NCBI RefSeq assembly: GCF_002723995.1
Contig: NZ_BEWP01000002.1
Coordinates: forward strand, 248,001-312,000
DNA: 64,000 bases
DNA from: Gluconobacter kondonii
GTDB lineage: Bacteria > Pseudomonadota > Alphaproteobacteria > Acetobacterales > Acetobacteraceae
Direction of reading: 5' to 3'
The translations under genes were made by a program, and so were the position numbers. The stretch's first letter is position 1. The number at the start of each line of letters is the position of its first letter. The notes under the pieces were generated by a model. It was not told the DNA's origin. It saw nothing but the letters and a program-made list of their open reading frames with translations, and made no database searches. Below, one piece after another: positions 4,512-7,244 of this stretch.

Positions 4512-5822
4512 TCAGGAACGCTTGTCAAAGGCCGAAGAGGTCGGCCAGACGCCCTGGGCATAAACCTGCCCGTAAGCGTGGACTTCCGTCAGATAGGTCC
4601 GCTCACCTTCGAGGACGATCTTCACGGTCGGTGCGAGCGTACCACCGATGCGATAGGTCGCCGGGTCCTGCGGGTCAGCCGAACCGGGCTGCGGCAGGGT
4701 ATCAATGAAGGACTGCACGTAACCGGCAGGATCGACAAAGTGCGAATAGGTTTCGTACGGCGCAGAGGACGGGTTACCGAGCACGAGGCCCGAACCGTTC
4801 AGCGGCGCATACGGACCGAAAATACCGTTCCGGGACACGAAACCATACACACCGTCCGGACCCGTGCTGTTGCCGGTGAAGGTGGAGTGATGAGAGATCG
4901 TGAACAGATAGGTCAGACCATCCTGGAAGACGACATGGGGGCGCTCCGTCTGGTCATTGACGCCAAGCGCCGTGACGAGGGCCGGCAGCATTTCCCATTT
5001 GGAGAAATCACCCCGCGTAGAGTCGGATGTCAGACGGGCAATGCCGATGGCAGCAGCGCCATACTGCGCGCCAGCCGGAACGGTCGTGGCGGGCGGAACC
5101 GGACCCATCTCGTCGGAACCGATGGTGAAGTTCCCGCGCATGCCCGGAACATTGCCTTCAAACAGGGCATAGATCTGGTTGTCGTCAGGATTGCGGAAGA
5201 TATGCGGATCGCGGAAATCCCAGTAAGCGTCTTCGACGATGTTGGCATAGTTCACGCCGTCTGCCTGGAACATGTCCGTGCAGACATCGAAGCCCTCGAA
5301 CCAGACGCCGGTGGCATCTGCCAGAATGCGGCCCGTCGTGTAGGACGGAACAGACTCGGACGGCGTATCGTTGACGGAAGTATAGAACAGATCGACCGTA
5401 TTGGCGCTGTTCTCTCGCATGACGGCACAACCGGACCATTCCCAACTGCGGGAGTTGGCACCTTCCTTGATGACGCGGCCACCGAACTTCCAGTCCGCGC
5501 CATTGCCGGTGCGGCTGTAGTAGTAGCCGATATAGGAATAGTTGTTGCGGCTGTGCCAGCCCTCGGTCGTATCGCCCGTGGCGGCACGATCGGCAACGAG
5601 GGCGAACATGACGTACCAGCCCTTGAAGGTGACGGTTTTGCCGTGAATATCGCGCAGCAGCCAGGTGTCCCACTGCCACACATCGGAATCGATGACGGGG
5701 AACGCATAGTCGATGACCGGCATGGTTGTGGTCGGATCATCGGTACGGATCTTCATCGCATCAGCGATCGTCCAGCGCGAACCGGAATGGACTGCGCTCT
5801 GCGTGCTGGAAACAGCGTTCAT
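4512..5822 (-). CDS. Levansucrase (glycoside hydrolase family 68)
   Basis: Splits sucrose and transfers fructosyl units to make levan and fructo-oligosaccharides. Length 436 aa from ATG 5822, chosen because ACAGGA lies six bases before it; an upstream in-frame start at 5861 would begin inside a leader hairpin. Catalytic residues are visible: nucleophile D52 in WQWDTW, transition-state stabiliser D205 in WDFRDPHIF, and acid/base E293 in DQTERPHVVF. The sequence closely resembles the Zymomonas levansucrase. There is no signal peptide, as in the group of acetic-acid-bacterial levansucrases released without Sec export. It is a single gene with no levanase or secretion genes nearby, its own terminator and a complex leader. 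Expression is probably controlled at the RNA level (inference). Confidence 0.95.
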   Translation of the reverse strand: MNAVSSTQSAVHSGSRWTIADAMKIRTDDPTTTMPVIDYAFPVIDSDVWQWDTWLLRDIHGKTVTFKGWYVMFALVADRAATGDTTEGWHSRNNYSYIGYYYSRTGNGADWKFGGRVIKEGANSRSWEWSGCAVMRENSANTVDLFYTSVNDTPSESVPSYTTGRILADATGVWFEGFDVCTDMFQADGVNYANIVEDAYWDFRDPHIFRNPDDNQIYALFEGNVPGMRGNFTIGSDEMGPVPPATTVPAGAQYGAAAIGIARLTSDSTRGDFSKWEMLPALVTALGVNDQTERPHVVFQDGLTYLFTISHHSTFTGNSTGPDGVYGFVSRNGIFGPYAPLNGSGLVLGNPSSAPYETYSHFVDPAGYVQSFIDTLPQPGSADPQDPATYRIGGTLAPTVKIVLEGERTYLTEVHAYGQVYAQGVWPTSSAFDKRS

Positions 5823-5859: not shown

Positions 5860-5902
5860 ACGTCAGCATCCGAGACCCTGTTTCAGGTCCGGATGCTGAC
5901 GT
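5860..5902 (-). promoter_or_regulatory. Leader hairpin before levansucrase
   Basis: ACGTCAGCATCCG and GACC on one side pair with GGTC and CGGATGCTGACGT on the other: a 17-bp stem with a single bulged base and an 8-nt loop. In mRNA sense it is followed after 8 nt by a T-rich run, then by ACAGGA and the start codon. The gap before the T-run is long for a classical terminator, so it may instead be an attenuator, a protein-binding hairpin or an mRNA stabiliser. Confidence 0.7.
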
Positions 5903-5984
5903 ACAATCTGAATAAAGAAATCAGGTCCCGTACTGAGCCGTAATTTTTACAAAGAAAAAATATCTTACTTCTGAAATTCGCAAC

Positions 5985-6019
5985 AAAAAAAGACCGCTTC
6001 TTTTGGAAGCAGCCTTTTT
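5985..6019 (-). terminator. Intrinsic terminator upstream of levansucrase
   Basis: On the minus strand AAAAAGGCTGCTTC pairs with GAAGCGGTCTTTTT over 14 positions including two G-U wobbles, loop CAAAA, followed by two more T residues. Because the wobbles become mismatches on the plus strand, it should act only in the minus direction, towards levansucrase. No gene ends in front of it. Confidence 0.8.
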
Positions 6020-6086
6020 GAAATTATTTGACCTGAAATTATTTTTTGAACCAGTAATCAATAACGTTTAATGGCTCAGTGCCACA

Positions 6087-6115
6087 GTTATAGGAAAAAG
6101 CTGCGCGCGATGCAA
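6087..6115 (-). promoter_or_regulatory. Strong sigma-70-like promoter
   Basis: Minus-strand -35 TTGCAT (6110-6115), 17-bp spacer and -10 TATAAC (6087-6092). Expected transcription start is near 6080, about 95 nt before the terminator at 5985-6019. It lies downstream of the ferrochelatase terminator, so it does not serve that gene. Confidence 0.6.
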
Positions 6116-6152: not shown

Positions 6153-6184
6153 ATAAAAAAAACCCACCCGTCATCGGGTGGGTT
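6153..6184 (-). terminator. Terminator of ferrochelatase
   Basis: Perfect 10-bp stem AACCCACCCG / CGGGTGGGTT with loop TCAT, followed on the minus strand by an eight-T run. It lies 28 bases after the ferrochelatase stop. Confidence 0.9.
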
Positions 6185-6212: not shown

Positions 6213-7244
6213 TCAGCGGCGCTGAAAACCGGCCAGCGCGGATCGCGAAAGCTCTTCCAGAAGATCAATCGCGCCTTTCGAGTCGTTCAGGCAGGGCACG
6301 AGAGCAAACTCTTCACCCCCTGCTTCCATGAATTCTTCCCGAAGCTCGTTCCCGATTTCATCCAGCGTTTCAATGCAGTCCGTCATGAAGCCAGGCATGA
6401 TGACCGCAATCTTCGTAATACCCTGTGACGGAAGAGCTTTGACGAAGGGCGCCGTATAGGGCTGGATCCATTCCAGCGGCCCAAAGCGGGACTGGAACGT
6501 CAGAGGCATCTGCGCCTCACTCAGCCCAAGAGCCGTCCGCAGTCCGGCAATCGTCCGCTCACATTCGTCGCGGTACGTATCGCCTTTTTCGATGCAGGTT
6601 TTGGGAAGACCATGAAACGACGCAACAATCTGCTGCGGCTTGAAAGACAGTTCCGCCAGCGTATCCTGAACGGACGTTTCAAGCGCGCGGATGAAAGCCG
6701 GATGATCCGGAAAGGATGGAACCGTCAGAACGGCCGGTTGGCGTCGTAGACGCATGAGGGCACGAAAAAGCTGATCATTGGCCGTGGCGGTCGTGGTTGC
6801 GGAATACTGCGGATAAAGCGCAATGCTGACGATCCGGTCGCAGCCCTGATCCATCAGGCTTTCCAGCGCCTTTGCAACGGAAGGGCGGCCATAACGCATG
6901 CCCCATTCCACTGGCACACCCTCAGCCTTCAGCCGTTCAGCAAGCCCCTCGGCCTGTCGACGGGTATAAACACGCAAGGGAGAGGCATTTTCGTCCCGAT
7001 CCCAGATCCGCGCATAATTCGCGCCGCTGGCGAAAGGACGTTTTGTCAGGATGATGCCTTGAAGAATGGGCTGCCAGATCAGAGGAGGACTCTCGATGAC
7101 GCGACGGTCAGAGAGAAACTCGCTGAGATATCTTCTGACTGAGAAATAGCCTGTATCGTCAGGCGTACCCAGATTGATCAGAAGAACACCCGTCCTGCCT
7201 TCTGGCGGAGGGGTAATTCGGGGGGTTTTATGTAAGAAAGCCAT
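6213..7244 (-). CDS. hemH: Ferrochelatase
   Basis: Inserts ferrous iron into protoporphyrin IX, the last step of heme synthesis; 343 aa. Seen: family N-terminus GVLLINLGTPD, active-site His in SFHGLPK, and the conserved acidic ETLDEIGNELREEF segment near residue 295. Start ATG 7244 was chosen because GAGGG lies four bases upstream and the next in-frame ATG (7271) adds residues without conservation. A 43-aa membrane protein gene lies 79 bases upstream on the same strand and may share the transcript. Followed by its own terminator. Confidence 0.95.
   Translation of the reverse strand: MAFLHKTPRITPPPEGRTGVLLINLGTPDDTGYFSVRRYLSEFLSDRRVIESPPLIWQPILQGIILTKRPFASGANYARIWDRDENASPLRVYTRRQAEGLAERLKAEGVPVEWGMRYGRPSVAKALESLMDQGCDRIVSIALYPQYSATTTATANDQLFRALMRLRRQPAVLTVPSFPDHPAFIRALETSVQDTLAELSFKPQQIVASFHGLPKTCIEKGDTYRDECERTIAGLRTALGLSEAQMPLTFQSRFGPLEWIQPYTAPFVKALPSQGITKIAVIMPGFMTDCIETLDEIGNELREEFMEAGGEEFALVPCLNDSKGAIDLLEELSRSALAGFQRR

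Follow-up and report, generated by a model that had tools for sequence, protein, structure and literature searches.

A probable terminator-locked promoter of a domesticated-phage regulon upstream of levansucrase in Gluconobacter

In phage lambda the late promoter pR' is combined with the terminator tR' and the antiterminator Q, and the leader comprises ~194 nt. The Gluconobacter unit described here resembles it in having a promoter, a short terminated RNA and then a holin-like gene, but the leader is of 96 nt (~40 nt at a second locus) as against ~194, and the regulator belongs to HTH_3 in place of Q. The leader of Bacillus sacB is controlled by antitermination by SacY. It shares with the present unit a terminator ahead of levansucrase; here, however, no conserved antiterminator is seen, and in other species another gene follows the unit. 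In Zymomonas, zliE and zliS are secretion genes for levansucrase, and the likeness is one of description: a levansucrase that lacks a signal peptide and lies close to lysis-like genes.

The gene transfer agent (GTA) of Caulobacter is run by a repressor together with an antiterminator loading at a promoter inverted repeat, as described in PMC11150451. Its control in C. crescentus (RogA, GafY, GafZ; PMC11150451) has in common with Gluconobacter a chromosomal phage-like cluster, a repressor and scattered accessory loci. A promoter inverted repeat is found in both, and terminators are bypassed by antitermination in Caulobacter (PMC11150451) as they probably would be here. The two differ in the position of the repeat, which lies between -35 and -10 in Caulobacter and on the start site in Gluconobacter, and in that of the terminator, which follows the first gene in the former and stands in the leader in the latter (PMC11150451). 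The GTA_TIM profile PF13547 matched in Caulobacter and not in the genome studied here. By this comparison, Caulobacter GTA control is a parallel and not a case of membership.

The window analysed is a stretch of 64,000 nucleotides from Gluconobacter kondonii (contig NZ_BEWP01000002.1). Its sequence and those of related genomes suggest, with a probability of roughly 0.6, that the unit belongs to a domesticated-phage (gene-transfer-agent-like) regulon, as a terminator-locked promoter that today lies upstream of levansucrase.

The promoter, the predicted RNA and its terminator

The unit is located on the minus strand (6115–5985) and consists of the following parts, given with the upstream neighbour:

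6213–7244, minus strand: hemH, ferrochelatase, upstream neighbour (terminator-like site at 6179–6162)
6110–6115, minus strand: -35 element TTGCAT (read from the sequence; strong promoter score there in 14/14 intergenic regions)
6087–6092, minus strand: -10 element TATAAC, spacer 17 nt (sequence and promoter score across 14 aligned regions)
6072–6084, no strand: operator-like dyad TGGC-N5-GCCA over the start site (present there in 25/26 genomes)
5985–6080, minus strand: predicted RNA of 96 nt, start 6080 (sequence, length conservation, fold and model)
6071–6080, minus strand: 5' arm of hairpin P1, nt 1–10 (per-sequence pairing test)
6045–6054, minus strand: 3' arm of hairpin P1 (per-sequence pairing test)
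5987–6019, minus strand: intrinsic terminator stem-loop of 14 pairs, U-run 5991–5985 (fold and per-sequence pairing)

The likely +1 is the A at 6080. Among 14 aligned hemH–levansucrase intergenic regions, no column but TTGCAT/TATAAC scores as a strong promoter in all rows (mean 8.2, minimum 7.1; the next best column has a mean of 3.1), as scored with a sigma-70 matrix. The predicted RNA contains no ATG. An earlier note on this DNA had described a near-consensus minus-strand promoter (TTGCAT-17-TATAAC, 6115–6087), about 95 nt without an open reading frame and a 14-bp terminator with a T-run, and had read the layout as that of a short RNA ending at the terminator, or else of an attenuated leader; each of these points is borne out. 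The note also stated that the terminator works in that direction only. The minus-strand stem is indeed present, but "only" is a matter of degree, for a generic promoter and terminator scan shows a weaker plus-strand stem at 5996–6010. The same scan listed neither the TTGCAT/TATAAC promoter nor the minus-strand terminator, the former being missed because the scan demands T at the last position of the -10 element. That the putative promoter and terminator stand above chance rests on their conservation and not on the generic scan.

The fold of the region 5960–6090 is more stable than those of its shuffles (z -2.65; equalled by 1 of 200). The distance from the -10 element to the end of the U-run is 104–111 nt in 19/19 loci. 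Terminator stems of 10–15 pairs are found in all 24 sequences possessing a terminator, while their sequence turns over (the 16 pairs printed for L007 include a separate 4-pair helix). In 20 of 25 sequences P1 pairs better than shuffles do (P<0.05; P 0.01 in the window); L002, L005, L009, L015 and L046 fall short of this level. Changes on both sides of P1 occur at position 2 (C-G, U-A) and position 4 (G-C, A-U). In the plain 19-row alignment, P1 covariation shows no excess over shuffles, its score being reached in 241 of 500. With regard to the covarying stem bases anticipated by the earlier note, the terminator shows a stem kept and a sequence changed. Support for the P1 hairpin is moderate and comes from the per-sequence test. 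The linker of the RNA contains a partly conserved AATTTCA motif. No Rfam family reaches its gathering threshold over the RNA (the best, Thr_leader, has 25.5 bits against 55), and the families listed at relaxed E-values were discarded, none being credible.

The RNAalifold consensus of 19 rows, which picked a TGGC/GCCA inverted repeat over P1, was not retained. Since the repeat reaches from -4 to +9, an RNA starting at +1 cannot form all of it, and it is taken here for a DNA dyad.

The intergenic region was recovered by DNA search in 19 of 60 genomes, the window's own included, all of one genus. Model R1, built from those 19 rows, matches 24 of the 26 genus genomes, 19 of them by construction; the further matches are G013 (strong, E 7e-13) and four weak ones (E 0.001–0.01), all four beside hemH. 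A 25th genome with the unit, G022, was read by synteny, and the unit adjoins hemH in 25/26 Gluconobacter genomes. G005 has no match for the RNA or for the holin-like gene, though the repressor and head genes are present. A family-wide RNA search, whose stricter filters may miss weak relatives, matched 5/299 genomes, all of the genus. Among 84,980 species genomes the motif was matched exactly in 18 stretches, all titled Gluconobacter. Titles and abstracts of the open-licence literature on phage elements, small RNAs, start sites and levansucrase expression in Gluconobacter or Acetobacteraceae gave no account of the unit. RNA-seq of G. oxydans 621H reported 18 novel intergenic transcripts and 24 intergenic start sites (PMC5756330), and the 96-nt RNA might be among these transcripts.

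The start-site dyad, the XRE gene and the phage-type loci

The start-site dyad, TGGCANTNAGCCA, extends from -4 to +9 and is kept in 25 aligned rows except L009, which has a changed centre. Its count of 25/26 genomes is composed of 19 loci and L040, L043–L046 and L077. In 26 genomes the pattern TGGCANTRAGCCA gave 72 matches vs 15 for the reversed control; in the 64-kb window TGGC-N5-GCCA was seen twice, with 1.76 expected in shuffles. The putative significance of the dyad is in its position and in its recurrence around the repressor gene; its count in the window is not by itself above chance. A stricter promoter-plus-dyad pattern matched the window's genome 7 times vs 0 in the control. Four of these matches look like chance and were rejected (three inside ORFs, one at tRNA-Glu); the remaining three are the start-site dyad, a second locus and a site by an XRE repressor-like gene. 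Also dropped, by eye, was the idea of a lambda-like binding site in the -35/-10 spacer, which is well conserved in the window's group only.

The XRE gene has one match per genome in 26/26 genomes (identity 84–100%). Dyads are found around it at about -29 in 26/26 genomes, at -74 in 24, at +580 in 26 and at +612 in 25. Across the family, the gene occurs in 20/299 genomes and 9/102 genera. At least two dyads, with the N5 changed, are present at 13/13 loci of other genera that were read (for L182 and L189 the start codon taken is not the first one), and the reading frame is broken by a stop in 2/13 of the genomes (G033, G329). The protein matches HTH_3 and HTH_31 only and not the Q-type family. 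One dyad is common to the regulator's own gene and to other promoters, which is the mark of a phage XRE repressor regulon.

The second locus is orthologous in 25/25 genomes (G005 was not read) and consists of the dyad directly followed by a terminator of 9–13 pairs; by eye, a -10-like hexamer stands two nt before the dyad. The order -10, dyad, terminator is therefore common to the hemH unit and the second locus, which favours the regulon reading. An ORF of the same kind begins at the first ATG past the U-run in 21/25 genomes (the other four are G004, G006, G013 and G020), with shorter frames in G008 and G021. This first ORF (G012) has 54% identity over 91 aa to an ORF near a Phage_lysozyme gene of a prophage in the window's genome. 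The second gene of the locus matches phrog_3108 (no known function) in both genomes scanned, and a lysozyme-like Pfam match was seen in one genome, below the cut-off. What is new in the present analysis is that this start-site dyad, putatively an operator, recurs both at a repressor gene of phage type and at a second locus of phage type.

In two genomes the same dyad also stands between genes that by eye are peptide-transporter-like and porin-like (L132 1536–1600, with three copies, and L122 1501). It is possible that these are further regulon members.

The cluster beside the XRE gene encodes both terminase subunits, portal, scaffold, major head protein, tail sheath, baseplate and tail fibre. 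The neighbouring gene names dnaB, ispA and dxs were assigned by eye. The head protein has one match in each of the 26 genomes, with one internal stop in G006 and G008. Its dN/dS has a median of 0.05 and a maximum of 0.093 (155 usable of 190 pairs, from 20/26 genomes, G006 and G008 left out). A vertically kept cluster under purifying selection, the general mark of gene transfer agents, was thereby found, and we read the head-and-tail cluster as a tamed phage kept by selection. Among 22 cluster ORFs of the window's genome compared with PHROGs no integrase was matched, and the ends of the element are not fixed. PF13547 gave 0 matches in the window's genome, the sole genus genome searched, while Caulobacter matched among 14 control genomes; kinship of the RcGTA/CcGTA type was rejected on this ground. 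The portal and phage proteins GOX1212, GOX1215, GOX1222 and GOX1224 of G. oxydans 621H, listed as Acetobacteraceae-specific in PMC2241609, presumably belong to the same cluster.

Between the repressor and the terminase lie two small genes (L148 1814–2685), of which the product of 101 aa has no match and that of 189 aa matches phrog_16492. They are candidates for the missing activator or antiterminator.

The holin-like gene and levansucrase behind the unit

Two arrangements follow the unit: levansucrase in 14 genomes (the window's group) and a small protein gene in 11. The start codon of the latter, termed holin-like, lies 20–25 nt past the U-run in 10/10 genomes that have both, and this gap is too short for another promoter. 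The name was given because of the resemblance of the protein to an ORF adjoining a prophage Phage_lysozyme gene (profile match, probability 93.5%, E 2e-7); a membrane segment was judged by eye, and for the members scanned Pfam gave no match and PHROG none of significance. Levansucrase stands behind the holin-like gene in 7 of the 11 genomes. It does not adjoin it in G001, G009, G012 and G022, where distant GH68 genes are found elsewhere. A tRNA-Pro(CGG) is located downstream in G001, G012 and G022, and also behind levansucrase in the window. Given the arrangement in species outside the window's group, the unit is by origin probably the terminator-locked leader of the holin-like gene.

In species lacking levansucrase here, the stretch from the unit to tRNA-Pro carries the holin-like gene, one gene of unknown kind and what looks by eye like a spanin-like membrane protein (L091 244–1834, L092, L093). 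A divergent gene for a small, secreted-looking protein is found between hemH and the unit where the holin-like gene is kept (L014, L016, L043, L045); Pfam gave no match for the single copy scanned.

The leader in G022 has no terminator and continues straight into the holin-like gene. This speaks against a free-standing trans-acting small RNA, built of a 5' hairpin, an A/U-rich linker and a terminator and acting on other mRNAs regardless of the downstream gene. We hold such an RNA to be unlikely, even if it has in its favour the tight length (104–111 nt from the -10 element), the AATTTCA motif of the linker, which is conserved in part, and a terminator retained by the 14 genomes that lack the holin-like gene at this place. 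Its conserved 5' sequence is accounted for by the dyad and P1, and the sole GGCTCAG complement noted lies in cis. That heptamer (5933–5939, in the levansucrase leader region) is the complement of nt 2–8 of the predicted RNA, and GGCTC is kept in 14/14 genomes. TTAYGGCTCA was tried as a motif of trans target sites and abandoned after 10 matches in the window's genome vs 6 in the reversed control (9 were viewed in context).

In the hemH tree of 25 genomes, a split with support 0.995 sets the 14 genomes of the window's group apart from the rest; the tree is unrooted, and "loss" of the holin-like arrangement in this group is inferred. Here the interval from hemH to levansucrase contains neither the holin-like gene nor the divergent neighbour gene, and the best matches of the holin-like protein elsewhere in these genomes are weak (43.5 bits in G007, at most 25 bits in the others). 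Both facts would suit a vestige, in which the promoter, dyad and terminator merely linger after the holin-like gene was lost. Conservation makes this distinctly improbable: in the 14 genomes the block 6122–5988 has 15-nt window means of 0.54–0.95, compared with 0.38–0.42 in the 30 nt upstream, and the terminator stem still pairs. The 60 nt past the terminator, however, are conserved to the same degree as the RNA itself (0.67–0.79), which weakens this argument.

Between the terminator and levansucrase the window contains:

5957–5986, minus strand: TTGTTG-N18-TATTTT, a weak candidate for a second promoter directly past the terminator (possibly that of levansucrase itself)
5860–5902, minus strand: second long, very stable stem-loop, then a U-rich tract, before levansucrase (folds compared by eye)
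4512–5822, minus strand: levansucrase, GH68 (Pfam PF02435 from residue 12, E 6e-141)

The distance from the U-run to levansucrase is ~160 nt in the window's group. The TTGTTG-N18-TATTTT column ranks fifth among the 14 regions (mean 1.4, minimum -9.1; 7.1 in the window itself) and fits the lax G. oxydans promoter motifs given in PMC5756330 (section 21). Given this weak candidate and the 60 conserved nt, levansucrase may be transcribed either from 6080 or from a start of its own at 5986–5957. The 5860–5902 stem, changed in sequence, is present by eye in most of the 14 genomes.

The earlier note had raised antitermination of the sacB kind for levansucrase. A sucrose-responsive attenuated leader of this type would agree with a promoter and terminator ahead of levansucrase and with the lack of another strong conserved promoter in the intergenic region. 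The proposal is not supported and is very improbable: the unit also precedes the holin-like gene, in four genomes with no levansucrase adjoining; by eye, no complementarity between the leader and the terminator arm is kept across species, hence no classical antiterminator and no overlap of the sacB type; and the levansucrase of G. albidus, whose genome falls in the window's group, is reported in PMC7272483 as constitutive, made and released without sucrose.

The levansucrase seems to be without a signal peptide, as the PF02435 domain begins too early for one. Signal-peptide-independent release has been described for LevS1417, as cited in PMC10819292 and PMC10384002. G. japonicus LsrA, likely the counterpart of the window levansucrase by size and missing signal, could not be detected according to PMC10819292, which argues against strong expression in that strain. 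We tentatively consider, as a rather doubtful extension, that levansucrase is a passenger of the domesticated-phage regulon, made by a switched-on subpopulation and released via holin action or lysis.

A domesticated-phage regulon in Gluconobacter

For the preferred reading, a terminator-locked promoter of a domesticated-phage regulon, position and conservation suggest that the XRE protein would bind the dyads and hold the promoters off. Transcripts that do start would be cut at the terminator as the 96-nt RNA, unless antitermination lets the polymerase pass it. Most likely, escape from the XRE protein and passage of the terminator together turn on the genes behind; in the ancestral arrangement such read-through would have switched on the holin-like gene. 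The window's group no longer has the holin-like gene at this place; levansucrase comes next, and the unit would act as its attenuated leader or persist as a retained short RNA. The present function is uncertain in this group because the gene served by the lock is missing, and a constitutive G. albidus levansucrase, as reported in PMC7272483, fits poorly with a tight lock. Also to be set against the preferred reading are the weak promoter candidate past the terminator, the HTH_3 instead of Q-type match of the XRE protein, the genome G005 with its repressor and head genes but neither the RNA nor the holin-like gene, and the stops in the repressor gene (G033, G329) and in the head-protein match (G006, G008).

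The finding links the industrial genus Gluconobacter to a probable genus-wide phage-derived regulon with scattered parts and gives its likely operator motif. The exit of levansucrase without a signal peptide becomes a testable question; if levansucrase is indeed a passenger of the regulon, this would account for the reported release of the enzyme from Gluconobacter independently of a signal. If the dyads and leader terminators cooperate, Gluconobacter would provide a further case, after Caulobacter as described in PMC11150451, of tamed-phage parts controlled by repression and antitermination.
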